Assembly: GCA_003141195.1 (NCBI GenBank)
Contig: PLLC01000052.1
Span: forward strand, 1-50,428
Direction: 5' to 3'
Length of the DNA stretch: 50,428 bases
From: Syntrophaceae bacterium
Lineage (GTDB): Bacteria > Desulfobacterota > Syntrophia > Syntrophales > UBA5619
How positions within the stretch are numbered: position 1 is the first letter of the stretch; each line of letters opens with the position of its first letter. Below the pieces are notes generated by a model. The model worked only from the letters and a program-made list of their open reading frames with translations. It did not search any database and had not been told where the DNA came from. The translations under genes and the position numbers were made by a program. Shown here piece after piece: positions 24,023 through 29,853 of this stretch.

Positions 24023-25075
24023 TTACCGCTTACGGTTCTCCGGACGCAGGGCGCGGACGGCGGCGCCAGCCTGCCACATCTCCGTTTTGTTCATCGTCTC
24101 CAGCTCCGCGTTGAGCTTCTTGCGGTAATCGGGGGCGTTGTTCACCGAAAGGACGATCCGCGTCTCCTCGCCGGAGCGGACGCTCTCGTAGAGTTTATCA
24201 AAAATGGGGACGACAGCCTCGCGGAAGGGTCCTTTCCAGTCCAGGGCGCCGCGCTGGGCGGTCGTGCTGCAGTTCGCGTACATCCAGTCCATCCCGTTTT
24301 CCGCGACGAGGCGGATGAGGCTCTGGGTCAGCTCCTCCACGGTCTCGTTGAAGGCCTCGCTCGGGCTGTGGCCGTTTTTCCGGAGCACGTTGTACTGCGC
24401 CTCCATGACGCCCGCCAGGGCGCCCATCAGGACGCCGCGCTCGCCCGTCAAGTCGCTGAACACCTCCTTCTCGAAGGTCGTCGGAAAGAGGTATCCCGAG
24501 CCGATGGCAATGCCCAGCGCAAGGGTCTTCTCGGTCGCCTTCCTCGAGGCATCCTGGAAGATCGCGTAGCTCGAGTTCAGACCGCTGCCGTCGAGGAAGT
24601 TGGCGCGCAGCGAGCGTCCCGAACCCTTGGGGGCGACGAGGACGACATCGATGTCCGAAGGCGGGATCACGCCGGTCTGTTCCCGATAGGTAATGGAAAA
24701 TCCATGCGAGAAGTAGAGGGTTTTCCCCTTCGTCAGGTAGGGTTTGAGCGTCGGCCACATCTGAGTCTGGCCCGCGTCGGAGAGCAGGTATTCAATGATC
24801 GTCCCCCGCTTCGCCGCCTCTTCGACGGGGAAGAGGGTCTTCCCGGGAACGAAGCCGTCCTCGACGGCCTTCTTCCACGTGGCGCCGCCTTCGCGCTGCC
24901 CCACGATCACCCGGATGCCGTTGTCCCGGAGGTTGAGGGCCTGCCCCGGCCCCTGCACGCCGTAGCCGAGAACGGCCACCGTCTCCCCTTTGAGGACCTC
25001 CTGGGCCCGGCTCAATGGAAATTCCTTAGAGGTCACGACCTCTTCCCACACACCGCCAAAATTGATCTTTGCCAT
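24023..25075 (-). CDS. ilvC: Ketol-acid reductoisomerase
   Basis: A 350-residue NADPH-dependent enzyme of isoleucine/valine synthesis that converts acetohydroxy acids to 2,3-dihydroxy acids with Mg2+. The dinucleotide motif is GYGVQG (37-42), followed by a cofactor loop VGQREGGATWKKA. The middle and C-terminal segments DLTGERGVLMGA, EELTQSLI and MDWMYANCSTTAQRGALDWKGPF resemble, from memory, the Bacteroidetes-type class I enzymes more than the common proteobacterial GYGSQGHA type. The frame extends 49 codons upstream, but ATG at 25075 with GGAG just before it gives the normal N-terminus MAKINFGG. It is 172 bp downstream of ilvN; that gap carries two tight hairpins. It is the last gene of the ilvBNC operon. 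Confidence 0.93.
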   Translation of the reverse strand: MAKINFGGVWEEVVTSKEFPLSRAQEVLKGETVAVLGYGVQGPGQALNLRDNGIRVIVGQREGGATWKKAVEDGFVPGKTLFPVEEAAKRGTIIEYLLSDAGQTQMWPTLKPYLTKGKTLYFSHGFSITYREQTGVIPPSDIDVVLVAPKGSGRSLRANFLDGSGLNSSYAIFQDASRKATEKTLALGIAIGSGYLFPTTFEKEVFSDLTGERGVLMGALAGVMEAQYNVLRKNGHSPSEAFNETVEELTQSLIRLVAENGMDWMYANCSTTAQRGALDWKGPFREAVVPIFDKLYESVRSGEETRIVLSVNNAPDYRKKLNAELETMNKTEMWQAGAAVRALRPENRKR

Positions 25076-25099
25076 GTTCTTCTCCTTTTTCGATAAACG

Positions 25100-25140
25100 G
25101 GGCCGGCGTTCCGGCCCTGGTAAAGGGGTCGCCCGACCCC
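25100..25140. repeat. Two tandem hairpins between ilvN and ilvC
   Basis: GGGCCGG-cgtt-CCGGCCC (25100-25117) and GGGGTCG-cc-CGACCCC (25125-25140) are perfect short inverted repeats within the 172-bp ilvN-ilvC gap. No T-run follows, so they may tune ilvC message stability rather than terminate. Nothing else recognisable is seen in the gap. Confidence 0.45.
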
Positions 25141-25247
25141 GTTGAACCCGGTTTCCGCGAGGATCCGCATGCCCGGAGGCAAGCCGCGGCAGGAACCCTC
25201 GCCCTGTCGATTGCTCCGTCATCCCCCGCCGCCTGCGGCGGGAACCG

Positions 25248-25742
25248 TCATCCCTCCCGCTTCTGGCGGAAGACGGCGATCGCCCCGGTCCGGTTCATCT
25301 CCTCTACGCCGAAGGGCTCGAAGTACCGGAGGATGGCCGCCGTCTTGTCCTTGTTGGCCGTGATCTCCATGATCAGGCAGTCCTCGCTCATCGCGACGAC
25401 CCGGCAGCCGAAGATATCGATTGCCCGGATGATCTCCTGGCGATTCTCCTCTTTCAGGCAGAGGCTGATGAGCATCAGCTCCCGCTGTACGGAGGGGGCG
25501 CCCGTGAAATCGGTGATCGAGATAACGTCGATGAGCTTGTCCAGTTGTTTCTTGATCTTCTCCGTGAAATCGCTCTCCGCCCGGCTGGTCAGCGTGATCC
25601 GGGAGACCTCCGGGTTTGTCGTCTCGGCGACGCATAGGCTCCGAATGTTGTAACCCCGGCTACTGAAGACACCGGCGATCCGGGAGAGCACCCCCGGCTG
25701 GTTGTTCACGAGCATCGAGATGGTGCGTTCTTCAATGGCCAT
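25248..25742 (-). CDS. ilvN: Acetolactate synthase small (regulatory) subunit
   Basis: A 164-residue regulatory subunit of acetohydroxyacid synthase. The N-terminal ACT domain (about residues 5-80) is clear from TISMLVNNQPGVLSRIAGVFSSRGYNI, and the C-terminal domain shows SRELMLI-like VQRELMLISLCLK and GCRVVAMSEDCLIMEITANKDK. It would bind valine and confer feedback inhibition on the IlvB catalytic subunit. It lies 31 bp downstream of ilvB and upstream of ilvC. The start ATG at 25742 is preceded by GGAAAGGAAA. Length matches IlvH/IlvN proteins of about 160 residues; the symbol ilvH would be equally acceptable. Confidence 0.92.
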   Translation of the reverse strand: MAIEERTISMLVNNQPGVLSRIAGVFSSRGYNIRSLCVAETTNPEVSRITLTSRAESDFTEKIKKQLDKLIDVISITDFTGAPSVQRELMLISLCLKEENRQEIIRAIDIFGCRVVAMSEDCLIMEITANKDKTAAILRYFEPFGVEEMNRTGAIAVFRQKREG

Positions 25743-25773: not shown

Positions 25774-27432
25774 CTATTTCCCGCAGATCATCTCCATATT
25801 GGAGGCGCCCGGAGGGATGATCGGATAGACGTAGTTGTTCTGATCGACCATCGCCTCCAGCATATACGGGCCGGTGGCGCCGCTCATCCGGGCAATCGCC
25901 TCCGCCGGGTCCTCGTCCACGGCGATCCGCTCCGCCGGAATGCCAAACCCCTTCGCCACTGCCGTCAGATCGACTGTGTCGCCCAGGGCGCTCGTCGTAA
26001 AACGCGCTTCGTAGAAGAGGTCCTGGATCTGCCGGATCATCCCCAGGTGGCCGTTGTTGATCACGACGATCTTGATCGGCAGGCTGTAGGCGCTGATCGT
26101 CGCCAGCTCCTGGATATTCATGTAAAAACCGCCGTCGCCGCAGATGACGACCACGTCCCGGTCCGGGGCGCCCACCTTGGCGCCGATGGCGGCCGGAACG
26201 GAGAAACCCATCGTCCCCATGCCGCCGCTCGTGAGCAGGCTTCGGGGAGAATGGCTCTGCCAGGTGCGGACCGTCCAGATCTGGTTCAGCCCCACGTCCG
26301 GGACGACAATCGTTTTCCGGGGCATGGCGGCCTGGATCTTCCGGATCAGGTTCCCCGCCTGGCCGCACCCGCCGTCGATGAGCTTGTCTTCCAGGGTTTG
26401 ACGGTCCGTTCGGATCCGTTCCAGCCATGCGTCCCGCTCCCGGGGAACGATCAGCGGGATCAGCGCCGAGAGGGCGTTTTGGATTTCCCCCTCGTAGGGG
26501 AGATCCACCTTGATGTTCTTTCCGATGGAGGTGGGATCGATGTCGATCTGGGCGACGGTGGCGAGCGGGGCGAACTCCTCGATGACGGAGGTGCTCCGCT
26601 CCGTGAAGCGGGTGCCTAGGGCGAGGATGAAGTCGGCCTGGTGAACCGTCCGGTTGGCCATTTCGTTGCCGTGCATGCCGATGAACCCGAGGTTGAAGCC
26701 GTTCGCGGAGGCGACCGAGCCGATTCCCATCATCGTCGTCACGAACGGAACCCGCGCCGTCTGCACGAACTCGGTCGCCCGGTCGCAGGCGTCGCCTAAC
26801 TTGACCCCGCCGCCGATGATGATGACCGGCCGCTCGCTCCGGTTCAGGGCCTGGGCGATCCGTTCGATCTGTTCCGGGTTCTCGATCCGTTTCAATGGGG
26901 CCGCCGGGATCTTCTTCGGCTGATCGCCGCAGGGGGCGCTCAAGATGTCCTTCGGGATGTCCACGAGGACGGGACCCGGCCGGCCGGTACTGGCGAGTTG
27001 GAAGGCCTGCCGGAGCGAGGAGGCAAGCTGGTTCACGTCCCGGACCATGAAGCTGTGCTTCGTTATGGGCATCGTGATCCCGATGATGTCCATCTCCTGG
27101 AAGGCGTCCCGGCCCCAGAGGTCGCTGTTGACCTGGGCGGTGATGGCGACCATCGGGGTCGAATCCATGTAGGCGGTGGCGATCCCCGTGACCAGGTTCG
27201 TGGCGCCGGGGCCGGACGTCGCGAGGCAGACCCCTACTTTGCCCGTCGCCCGGGCATAGCCGTCGGCGGCATGGGCCGCCGCCTGCTCGTGCCGCATCAG
27301 GTAGTGCCGGATGGGGCTGTCGGTGAGGCGGTCGTTGAGCGGCAGGGTGTTGGCCCCGGGGTAGCCGAAGATCACATCCACCCCCTCCTCCGCCAGGGTT
27401 TTCAAAACAATGTCCGCACCGATGGTACCCAT
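25774..27432 (-). CDS. ilvB: Acetolactate synthase large (catalytic) subunit
   Basis: A 552-residue thiamine-diphosphate enzyme that condenses two pyruvates, or pyruvate with 2-oxobutyrate, the first step of valine, leucine and isoleucine synthesis. The catalytic glutamate E49 is in RHEQAAAHAADGYAR. The ThDP/Mg motif begins GDGGFYMN (about 432) and ends at NN (about 459). The central FAD-binding region is present. The reading frame extends 22 codons upstream, but that stretch encodes the leader hairpin; ATG at 27432 has AAAGGAG five bases before it. It heads the ilvB-ilvN-ilvC operon. Expression is probably controlled by the leader peptide and attenuator at 27453-27638. Confidence 0.94.
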   Translation of the reverse strand: MGTIGADIVLKTLAEEGVDVIFGYPGANTLPLNDRLTDSPIRHYLMRHEQAAAHAADGYARATGKVGVCLATSGPGATNLVTGIATAYMDSTPMVAITAQVNSDLWGRDAFQEMDIIGITMPITKHSFMVRDVNQLASSLRQAFQLASTGRPGPVLVDIPKDILSAPCGDQPKKIPAAPLKRIENPEQIERIAQALNRSERPVIIIGGGVKLGDACDRATEFVQTARVPFVTTMMGIGSVASANGFNLGFIGMHGNEMANRTVHQADFILALGTRFTERSTSVIEEFAPLATVAQIDIDPTSIGKNIKVDLPYEGEIQNALSALIPLIVPRERDAWLERIRTDRQTLEDKLIDGGCGQAGNLIRKIQAAMPRKTIVVPDVGLNQIWTVRTWQSHSPRSLLTSGGMGTMGFSVPAAIGAKVGAPDRDVVVICGDGGFYMNIQELATISAYSLPIKIVVINNGHLGMIRQIQDLFYEARFTTSALGDTVDLTAVAKGFGIPAERIAVDEDPAEAIARMSGATGPYMLEAMVDQNNYVYPIIPPGASNMEMICGK

Positions 27433-27452
27433 GTCTGCTCCTTTCACCGAAT

Positions 27453-27484
27453 AAAAAAGCCGCCGATTCTCCCGAACCGCGGCT
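27453..27484 (-). terminator. Second leader hairpin (terminator-like) before ilvB
   Basis: On the minus strand AGCCGCGG...GGCGGC forms a stem followed by TTTTTT (A-run 27453-27458), about 20 bases before the ilvB start codon and just upstream of its ribosome-binding site. Terminator form is clear; regulatory use is inferred together with the hairpin at 27497-27530. Confidence 0.6.
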
Positions 27485-27509
27485 TTTCTCAGAAACAAAA
27501 AAGCCGCGG
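27477..27509 (-). promoter_or_regulatory. Candidate antiterminator pairing in the ilv leader
   Basis: The segment 27499-27509 (on the minus strand CCGCGGCTTTT, the right arm of the first terminator) is perfectly complementary over 11 bases to 27477-27487 (AAAAGCCGCGG, the left arm of the second). With an 11-base loop between them this hairpin would disrupt both terminators. Which structure wins is not shown by sequence alone. Confidence 0.5.
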
Positions 27510-27530
27510 ACCTTCAAGGGGCCCGCGGCT
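27497..27530 (-). terminator. ilv attenuator terminator
   Basis: On the minus strand AGCCGCGG and CCGCGGCT pair as an 8-bp GC-rich stem (extended inward by GG/CC) and are followed by TTTTTT (A-run 27497-27502). It begins 21 bases after the leader-peptide stop codon, the position expected of a transcription attenuator in a branched-chain amino acid operon. Confidence 0.75.
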
Positions 27531-27551
27531 CTTGTCTTTTATGTCATCCCA

Positions 27552-27638
27552 TCAAAGACGCCGAGCAGCAGCCCCCGTGCGTACGAGTACTACGACGTTC
27601 AGTACGAGAAGCAGGCTGTTCGACAATGGGTGGTTCAT
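27552..27638 (-). CDS. ilv operon leader peptide, 28 residues
   Basis: An ORF of 28 codons starts with ATG at 27638 and ends with TGA at 27552-27554. It encodes the run LLLVLNVVVLV (residues 9-19), with nine of those eleven codons for Leu or Val apart from one Asn, and ends in an Arg/Ala-rich tail. AAGGA lies seven to eight bases upstream of the ATG. It sits between the predicted promoter (27673-27701) and the terminator hairpin (27497-27530), ahead of ilvB. This is the arrangement of leader peptides such as IvbL and IlvL in Escherichia coli, where ribosome stalling at scarce Leu/Val tRNA prevents termination. No other function is expected of the peptide. Too short for standard gene calling. 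Confidence 0.8.
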   Translation of the reverse strand: MNHPLSNSLLLVLNVVVLVRTGAAARRL

Positions 27639-27672
27639 AAATAAATCCTTCCAGTCCAAAAATTGAGGTCGA

Positions 27673-27701
27673 ACCCTACAGGAAAGAAAAACCCTTGTCA
27701 A
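27673..27701 (-). promoter_or_regulatory. Promoter of the ilv operon
   Basis: On the minus strand a consensus -35 TTGACA (27696-27701) is followed after 17 bases by TAGGGT (27673-27678), a weak -10. Transcription would start near 27666, about 28 bases before the leader-peptide ATG. It lies 95 bp past the mrcA stop codon. Confidence 0.55.
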
Positions 27702-27795: not shown

Positions 27796-29853
27796 TCAGA
27801 AGTTGGGGTCCGTGTCGAATCGGTGCACCCCGCCGGGCAGATTGGCAGGATCGATCGTTTCGGCGTCTTCGGGCGTCGTCCCCTCGAGGAAGCATTCGAA
27901 AATCGCCCCGCGGTTCGAGGGCTTGGCCGGGGCGCCGGTCTTCGGATCGACCTTCATGAAGACGATCCCATCCGGTACGGGGAAGACCTCGACCGGTGTC
28001 CCCTGGAGGGCCTTCTCCGCGAAATAGAGCCAGATCGGGGCCGCGGCGCGGCCGCCGACCTCCTGCCGGCCCATGGGCCGCTCCTGATCGAAGCCCACCC
28101 ATACGCCGGCGACCAGCGAAGGCGTGAACCCCATAAACCAGGCGTCGCGCGTGTCGTCCGTCGTCCCGGTTTTGCCGGCGACCGGCCGCCCGAGTTTCTT
28201 CACCCGCTGCCCTGTCCCGCTTTCGACGACGTCCTGCATGACGTAACTCGTCATGAAGGCGATCCGCGGATCGATCACCTGTTCCACCTTCGGTTGCGTC
28301 TCCTCGAAGACATGCCCCGTCCGGTCGACGATCTTCTTGATGAAAAAGGGCTGCACCCGCTTCCCCTCGTTTGCCAGGACGCCATAGGCCCGGACCAGCT
28401 CCTGGAGGGTGACCCCGGAGGTGCCGAGGGCCATCGAGAGGTTCCGGGAAAGGGGCGAGGAGATCCCCAGGTTGGTCGCGTAGGCAGCCGCATAATCCAC
28501 GCCGATCTCCTCAAGAACCTTGATCGTGATGATGTTCCGGGAGTGGATCAGGGCGTTGTGCAGCGTCGTCGGGCCGAGAAACTTCTCGTCGAAGTTCCTC
28601 GGTTTCCAGACCCCATCGGGCTGCTGGGGATCCGGATAGACGATGGGGGCGTCCACGATTACCGTCGCGGGGGTCATCCCCTTGTCAAAGGCCGCCGTGT
28701 AGATGAGCGGCTTGAAGGCCGATCCGGGCTGGCGCCGGGACTGGGTCGCGCGGTTGAACTCGCTCCGCTGAAAATTGCGCCCCCCGACCATCGCCCGGAT
28801 GGCGCCGGTCTTCGACTCCATCGCAAAGAGAGCCCCCTGGACGAGCCCCTTCTCGTAGTGTTCCCGTTCCTCCATCTCCCGGAGGCCCTTCTCCACCGCA
28901 TCCCGCGCCGCCTTCTGCATCTGAATGCTCAGGGTCGTGTAAACCTCAAGACCCTCCTTGTAGAGGACGTCGCTGCCGTATTTCTCCTGGATGTAGCGGC
29001 GGATGTTTTCAATGAAGTAGGCGGCGATCTTTTCCTTCGGCTTGATCGATCGGAGTTTGATCACCGTGGAGAGCGCCCGGTCCCTCTCGCGTCGGGTGAG
29101 GTAGCCGTCCTCCAACATCCGGTTGAGGACGTAAGCCTGCCGCTGGTAGGCCCGCTCCGGGTGGAGATAGGGGGAGTAGTTGCCCGGGGCCTTGGGGAGT
29201 CCCGCCAGCATGGCCGCTTCCGGCAGCGACAGGTTTCGGGCGCTTTTCCCGAAATACCCCTGGGCGGCGGCCTCGACGCCGTAGGTCCCGTGGCCGAGGT
29301 AGATGTGGTTCAGATAGAGGGTGATGATCTCTTCCTTGGTCAGATACCGGTCGATCTTGTAGGCGAGGAGCGCCTCCTTGATCTTCCGTATGTAGCTCTT
29401 CTCCGGGGAGAGGTAGAGAGACTTGGCGACCTGCTGGGTGATCGTGCTTCCCCCCTGGACGATCCTGCCCGCCTCGAGATTCTTGAAAAAGGCCCGGGAC
29501 ATACTCTGCATGTCGAACCCGCTGTGCTGGAAGAAGCGGGCGTCCTCGGAGGCGACGAAGGCCTGGATCACGATCTTCGGGATGTCCTCGTATTTGATAA
29601 CCTTCCGGTCCTCGAGGAAGAATTCGTCGATCAGTTCGTTGTTGTCCGCATAGACCCTCGTCGTGATGCTGGGGCGGTAGTCCTTCAGGGCGGCGATGCT
29701 GGGGAGCTCCTTCAGGAGCACGTAATAAAACAGGCTGGTTCCCGCCAGGGCGACGGTGACGAATAGCACGAGGATCGCAACGATAATGATCCCCAGGAGG
29801 GAGTGTCGGGAAGACGATCTCCTCTTCCGCGGGGCAGGACGCTTGACGGTCAT
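27796..29853 (-). CDS. mrcA: Penicillin-binding protein 1A (bifunctional transglycosylase/transpeptidase)
   Basis: A 685-residue class A PBP that polymerises lipid II and cross-links peptidoglycan in the periplasm. A basic N-terminal tail and one membrane anchor (about 19-45) precede the GT51 domain with catalytic E103 in ASEDARFF and GGSTITQQ (134-141). The transpeptidase has SAFK (378-381, serine nucleophile S378), SRN (438-440) and KTG (561-563). An OB-like insert typical of larger PBP1A proteins is short or absent, in line with the modest length. The start ATG at 29853 overlaps the tatC stop by 4 bases (ATGA), so the two are translationally coupled. It is the last gene of the tatB-tatC-mrcA operon. 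Confidence 0.93.
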   Translation of the reverse strand: MTVKRPAPRKRRSSSRHSLLGIIIVAILVLFVTVALAGTSLFYYVLLKELPSIAALKDYRPSITTRVYADNNELIDEFFLEDRKVIKYEDIPKIVIQAFVASEDARFFQHSGFDMQSMSRAFFKNLEAGRIVQGGSTITQQVAKSLYLSPEKSYIRKIKEALLAYKIDRYLTKEEIITLYLNHIYLGHGTYGVEAAAQGYFGKSARNLSLPEAAMLAGLPKAPGNYSPYLHPERAYQRQAYVLNRMLEDGYLTRRERDRALSTVIKLRSIKPKEKIAAYFIENIRRYIQEKYGSDVLYKEGLEVYTTLSIQMQKAARDAVEKGLREMEEREHYEKGLVQGALFAMESKTGAIRAMVGGRNFQRSEFNRATQSRRQPGSAFKPLIYTAAFDKGMTPATVIVDAPIVYPDPQQPDGVWKPRNFDEKFLGPTTLHNALIHSRNIITIKVLEEIGVDYAAAYATNLGISSPLSRNLSMALGTSGVTLQELVRAYGVLANEGKRVQPFFIKKIVDRTGHVFEETQPKVEQVIDPRIAFMTSYVMQDVVESGTGQRVKKLGRPVAGKTGTTDDTRDAWFMGFTPSLVAGVWVGFDQERPMGRQEVGGRAAAPIWLYFAEKALQGTPVEVFPVPDGIVFMKVDPKTGAPAKPSNRGAIFECFLEGTTPEDAETIDPANLPGGVHRFDTDPNF

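Follow-up and report, generated by a model that had tools for sequence, protein, structure and literature searches.

Predicted ribosome-mediated attenuation of ilvBNC by a leader with two terminators in series in Syntrophales

The analysed window, a stretch of 50,428 nucleotides from a Syntrophaceae bacterium (contig PLLC01000052.1), carries on its minus strand the ilvB, ilvN and ilvC genes, identified by Pfam and NCBIfam models over their cut-offs. The gap between the upstream penicillin-binding-protein gene and ilvB, also read on the minus strand, measures 363 bases and contains putative promoter elements, a leader ORF and two terminators. The features are as follows:

29853..27796, minus strand: penicillin-binding-protein gene, the upstream neighbour of the ilv leader
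27701..27696, minus strand: -35 element TTGACA, assigned by sequence and invariant in 13 close relatives
27678..27673, minus strand: weak -10 element TAGGGT, separated from TTGACA by a 17 bp spacer
27652..27646, minus strand: leader Shine-Dalgarno sequence GGAAGGA, assigned by sequence; a purine-rich site precedes most relatives' leaders
27638..27552, minus strand: leader ORF of 28 codons, MNHPLSNSLLLVLNVVVLVRTGAAARRL, from ATG 27638 to TGA 27554..27552
27582..27614, minus strand: regulatory codon run LLLVLNVVVLV, within the leader ORF
27518..27576, minus strand: antiterminator hairpin, formed by the leader 3' end (27576-27554) and the 5' arm of terminator 1
27533..27499, minus strand: terminator 1, with 14 pairs, 9 of them G-C, and a U6 tract
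27474..27512, minus strand: possible relay hairpin between the 3' arm of terminator 1 and the 5' arm of terminator 2
27487..27454, minus strand: terminator 2, between terminator 1 and the ilvB ribosome-binding site
directly 3' of terminator 2, minus strand: ilvB ribosome-binding site, GAAAGGAG
25774..27432, minus strand: ilvB, acetolactate synthase large subunit, ATG at 27432, 552 aa (TIGR00118 above cut-off)
25248..25742, minus strand: ilvN, acetolactate synthase small subunit (TIGR00119 above cut-off)
24023..25222, minus strand: ilvC, ketol-acid reductoisomerase (TIGR00465 above cut-off)

The original prediction had placed a 28-codon ORF between a TTGACA promoter element and one strong terminator, ahead of ilvB, and every one of these elements was located on the minus strand. 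The strong terminator corresponds to terminator 1, whereas the second terminator (27487..27454) and the antiterminator had been overlooked. The matches of all three downstream genes to NCBIfam models agree with the proposed ilvBNC operon, and the presumed deltaproteobacterium is of Syntrophales type, its nearest named relatives being Syntrophaceae/Syntrophales MAGs. Four terminator-like sites are found in the region, compared to 0.8 expected. A simple sigma-70 scan of the region scored no promoter, the TTGACA/TAGGGT pair included. Two other possible ilvB starts, TTG 27517 and TTG 27498, were rejected, as ATG 27432 has a good ribosome-binding site and agrees with the relatives. Homology of ilvC starts only at residue 77 of the annotated frame, and the real start of this gene probably lies near 25000.

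Orthologues of ilvB were gathered by protein similarity only, from two sets: 61 genomes close to that of the window, and species genomes, which contributed 63 loci and among which the nearest named are Syntrophaceae/Syntrophales/Syntrophus MAGs. The 41 distinct ilvB genes examined, from Syntrophales and relatives, are 59-91% identical, and a leader with a Leu/Val/Ile run stands ahead of each one of them (41 of 41 distinct upstream regions), with a Shine-Dalgarno-like site before most of these leaders. The leader peptides diverge widely, as in MLRNIILILGIITVVIVRKGTAARFL compared to MKHTAMAVVSVVVVVVSEGTAARPF, but the run persists, as does a G(T/A)AAR-like C-terminus. Among close relatives, runs of different length differ by whole codons. 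Nonsynonymous differences are frequent in the leader, indicating no strong constraint on which amino acids stand outside the run.

A covariance model of the ilv attenuator element, R1, matches 138 of the 149 genomes of the order at E <= 0.001, with a score of at least 66 bits in 122 of the 149; the lower-scoring matches, among those opened, lie mostly at other operons. A match of R1 on the opposite strand (27422-27542) was treated as a terminator artefact, the element being palindromic. In one genome the ilv leader stands before ilvC (L156, G010:C92), and in two others before an ilvB about 43% identical to that of the window (L150, G025:C6; L151, G053:C336). At these three loci, the pathway has kept its attenuator, but a different gene now follows it. 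Two loci, L021 and L050, have a repeat-like insert of about 300 bases between the attenuator and ilvB; in L021, the leader, the antiterminator and both terminators are intact despite this insert. Five further loci (G035:C26, G037:C228, G055:C48, G038:C2 and G054:C1) carry two ilvB types, about 43% identical, in the same direction with about 0.7-1 kb between them; the two may belong to a single attenuated operon.

The most constant signal of the leaders is provided by Val codons, mostly the rare GTA, with Leu codons in second place. GTA accounts for 71% of the Val codons in the pooled leaders, compared to 5.2% in the genes of the window, and for four of the five Val codons in the window leader. 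The use of rare regulatory codons is consistent with a sensor of tRNA charging and may make sensing more sensitive here. In 35 of 36 leaders, the antiterminator begins 5 or 8 nt downstream of the last V/L/I codon, counted from the first base of that codon. Considering the size of the ribosome footprint, this spacing suggests that a ribosome stalled early in the run would spare the antiterminator, while one at the stop codon would cover it.

The 5' arm of the antiterminator consists of the last leader codons, GGGGGCUGCUGCUCGGCGUCUUU (27576..27554), which encode G(T/A)AAR-L, and its last base is the first of the stop codon. This arm pairs with AAAGAC..GAGCCGCGGGCCCC, a segment that contains the 5' arm of terminator 1. 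The antiterminator overlaps the leader ORF, and it and terminator 1 are mutually exclusive, with predicted folding energies in the window leader of -31.9 kcal/mol for the antiterminator and -24.9 kcal/mol for terminator 1. The antiterminator segment shows a single fold architecture in all 37 aligned sequences. In alignment A1, half of its pairs (9 of 18) are changed on both sides, and the number of double-changed cells is 31 compared to 19.8 in shuffles, with none of 500 shuffles reaching 31. The covariation is also above that of all slid controls. Since the 5' arm is coding, synonymous recoding served as a further test. In each of the 36 testable leaders, the native codons yield a more stable antiterminator than the mean synonymous recoding (mean z -2.0; the combined significance is overstated because the leader sequences are related), which argues for selection on the RNA and not on the peptide alone.

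Folding in silico of the nascent RNA gives the antiterminator near-maximal probability in 37 of 37 sequences. When the antiterminator is masked, terminator 1 folds in most of the 37; with the leader end masked, L014, L018, L019 and L037 fold otherwise than terminator 1. The unconstrained fold of the whole leader contains terminators 1 and 2 without the antiterminator, so the switch is not settled by equilibrium folding alone. The equilibrium balance also differs between species, suggesting that function depends on kinetics.

The arrangement of two terminators in series is found in 36 of 37 aligned sequences, both terminators carry U tracts, and terminator 2 displays 34 compensatory cells compared to 14.3 in shuffles; the double terminator is thus established at the level of the aligned sequences. 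In the exception L022 (G011:C3), a natural single-terminator variant, terminator 2 has decayed and the leader, the antiterminator and terminator 1 remain. The putative relay hairpin between the 3' arm of terminator 1 and the 5' arm of terminator 2 has a predicted energy of -21.1 kcal/mol, and its core pairs in nearly every aligned sequence but with little covariation. In the window leader, the antiterminator together with the relay hairpin (ON, -58.8) is about as stable as the two terminators (OFF, -58.9), and the lowest-energy ON state includes the relay pairing. In silico, occupation of the 5' arm of terminator 1 allows the relay hairpin to form in the nascent RNA. The relay complementarity is barely better within than between genomes (permutation p of 0.11 for ilv and 0.003 for trp), and may therefore partly reflect stereotyped terminator stems; for this reason, a relay from terminator 1 to terminator 2 is put forward here as a candidate step.

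Attenuation could instead operate through terminator 1 only, terminator 2 being an independent, partial or backup terminator and the relay hairpin not forming. The largely stereotyped complementarity of the two terminators would fit such an arrangement, as would the L022 leader, which lacks terminator 2 yet keeps the rest, and the finding that terminator 2 holds its own against the relay hairpin at equilibrium when terminator 1 is deprived of its 5' arm. However, terminator 2 is kept in 36 of 37 sequences at a position between terminator 1 and ilvB where a strong unregulated terminator would defeat antitermination, and the relay core pairs in nearly all sequences and is present in the lowest-energy ON state of the window. 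Taken together, we regard control through terminator 1 only as a tenable but somewhat improbable reading. The double terminator poses a testable question, namely how one stalled ribosome deals with two terminators in series.

The ilvBNC leader very probably acts as a ribosome-mediated transcription attenuator that senses charged tRNA-Val, along with tRNA-Leu and, in some relatives, Ile. The sequence features of such an element are all found here: an ORF with a ribosome site and a regulatory run, an intrinsic terminator, an overlapping and mutually exclusive antiterminator, and conservation. From these segments and their compensatory changes, as read in the sequences, we infer leader translation, stalling and termination, together with the relay to terminator 2. 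When Val and Leu are ample, the ribosome would reach the leader stop codon at 27554 and cover the leader 3' end; with this end covered, the antiterminator would be blocked, terminator 1 would fold and transcription would stop, while terminator 2 would catch read-through past terminator 1. Under a shortage of Val or Leu, stalling of the ribosome in LLLVLNVVVLV would leave GGGGGCUGCUGCUCGGCGUCUUU free to base-pair with the 5' arm of terminator 1 and block this terminator. The freed 3' arm of terminator 1 may then capture the 5' arm of terminator 2, so that this second terminator is disarmed as well, and with both terminators disarmed the polymerase would reach ilvB. Leader-peptide attenuation, as first proposed for this locus from the window alone, is supported by the conserved run, spacing and hairpins across the order. 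In the comparison of leaders of ilvB homologues that had been suggested as a check, the peptide, the codon run, the spacing and the hairpins are kept across an order; the loss of peptide and codon-run conservation that would have spoken against attenuation did not occur, all 41 leaders having a run.

Two other explanations of the region do without a translating ribosome as sensor. The hairpins could be ordinary terminators of the penicillin-binding-protein gene, and the short ORF a chance Leu/Val run. This gene is indeed on the same strand and is syntenic in about 17 of 29 loci, and LLLVLNVVVLV by itself could be hydrophobic noise, but a chance run is at odds with its retention in 41 of 41 leaders, with the rare-codon bias and with the pairing of the coding segment favoured at synonymous sites. 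Moreover, the TTGACA between the two genes is invariant in close relatives, the element also occurs before another ilvB type and before ilvC, and parallel Trp (at trpE) and Phe leaders exist, which makes an origin as terminators of the upstream gene extremely unlikely. Control by a riboswitch, a T-box or an RNA-binding protein would likewise account for a structured, conserved 5' RNA before ilvB, and ppGpp riboswitches regulate ilvB in some bacteria according to work cited in PMC10272879. Against this, a search of Rfam (T-box, riboswitches and curated leaders) found no family at gathering score, either here or in the related elements. What is conserved is the codon run together with stems that exclude one another, and the identity of the codons tracks the pathway controlled (Val/Leu, Trp or Phe). 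We therefore consider control by such an RNA or protein very unlikely and retain attenuation by a translating ribosome.

In enterobacteria, the ilvL (ilvGMEDA) and ivbL (ilvBN) leaders contain a branched-chain run, alternative hairpins and one terminator before the first gene. The enterobacterial ilv plan that had been invoked for this locus holds for the leader run and the hairpins, but the layout is not simply enterobacterial, because it has two complete terminators and an antiterminator built by the last leader codons. The antiterminator of ilvL and ivbL is not similarly built, and these leaders belong to another operon and another phylum. In the enterobacterial his leader, alternating hairpins A to F pass the switch along the RNA and only the last is a terminator; the chain of alternating hairpins is alike, whereas here two OFF-state hairpins carry U tracts. 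Attenuation in Proteobacteria was reportedly treated by Vitreschak et al. in 2004.

Leader-peptide attenuation has been predicted in Actinobacteria (PMC1262725) and shown by mutation for ilvBNC of Corynebacterium glutamicum (PMC11857589, PMC10272879). The C. glutamicum ilvBNC leader (ilvL; ilvB-II motif) shares with the present one a Val/Leu/Ile leader and an overlapping antiterminator and terminator before ilvBNC (PMC11857589, PMC10272879). According to work cited in PMC11857589, exchanging the three Val residues of this leader for Ala abolished valine-dependent expression. By description, to which this likeness is confined, ilvL has 15 codons, begins one nucleotide from the transcription start and has one terminator, compared to 28 codons and two terminators here. 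The ilvB-OMG and Leptospira ilvB motifs (PMC10272879) similarly have an upstream ORF with many branched-chain codons before ilvB, with a consensus that is different as judged by description. Tandem terminators with a potential antiterminator are known from the rimP-leader of Gammaproteobacteria (PMC2965389); the tandem terminators are alike, but the gene is different and that paper does not present the element as an amino-acid leader-peptide system. In the open literature searched, we found no leader-peptide attenuation in this lineage, which does not by itself prove it undescribed, and no description of a two-terminator version kept across a whole order. The ilvBNC leader represents a known mechanism in a new lineage with a variant architecture, and adds a group of syntrophic anaerobes for which little genetics exists to the bacteria with probable leader-peptide control of branched-chain synthesis.

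The weaker R1 matches correspond to attenuators of other operons; within the window's own genome (G000), such elements were sought with R1 only. In this genome, trpE is preceded by a Trp leader, MTNKLNSMRNWWWQNSHREGFVHR, with the same tandem terminators (L133, G000:C77:82564-82703), and a DAHP-synthase-like gene by an aromatic leader, MEHIKNCNYGFWFYYFYAPVCPMLRRT, with two terminators (L137, G000:C77:72820-72982). Tyr/Phe leaders similar to the latter were observed at L142, L166 and L168. A further leader, MFGVMGLRDFRRGGFTGFFGFFIGVCPPRL, stands before a Liv-type ABC operon that includes two acyl-CoA ligases (L136). At L173 (G000:C74) of this genome, an attenuator near 12250-12040 with a Phe-rich leader and two terminators precedes an operon with genes at 12058-3892 on the minus strand, which encode a Liv-type ABC transporter and FadD-like and PaaK-like acyl-CoA ligases.

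Samples of trpE and of the Liv-type binding protein were drawn by protein, avoiding selection by R1. A Trp-run leader is present at 28 of the 30 trpE genes of the order, nearly all with two terminators. The two leaderless genes, L196 and L197 of genus g15, are also without the terminator pair, the g15 genomes G031 and G047 yielded no match to R1, and attenuation may have been lost in this genus. Of the 30 binding-protein orthologues sampled, 25 have a Phe leader, and both terminators were detected in 19 of these. The combination of a short ORF and an RNA signature reveals which amino acid an operon serves: the Phe leader before the otherwise unassigned Liv-type transporter/acyl-CoA-ligase operon suggests a role in phenylalanine supply. 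An indolepyruvate oxidoreductase (TIGR03336) is encoded on the L173 contig (G000:C74:21759-23540). Together with the L173 operon, it suggests uptake of phenylacetate for phenylalanine synthesis.

In the broadest reading, for which we see an even balance of probability, Syntrophales and probably wider parts of the phylum would share a double-terminator attenuator in which one stall disarms two terminators through the relay, reused for ilv (Val/Leu), trp (Trp), DAHP synthase (Phe/Tyr), leuA (Leu) and the Phe transporter/acyl-CoA-ligase operon. Outside the order, one R1 match was located before an ilvB-like gene (L165) and one before a gene resembling leuA (L171), and further matches correspond to Trp or Tyr/Phe leaders. 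The genes downstream of these matches outside the order, like the DAHP synthase, were named from the protein start only. L171, from another family of the phylum, shows a possible Leu leader, MKTNTARIAVVGSLALAGLPGGRSTAA, and two terminators before its leuA-like gene.
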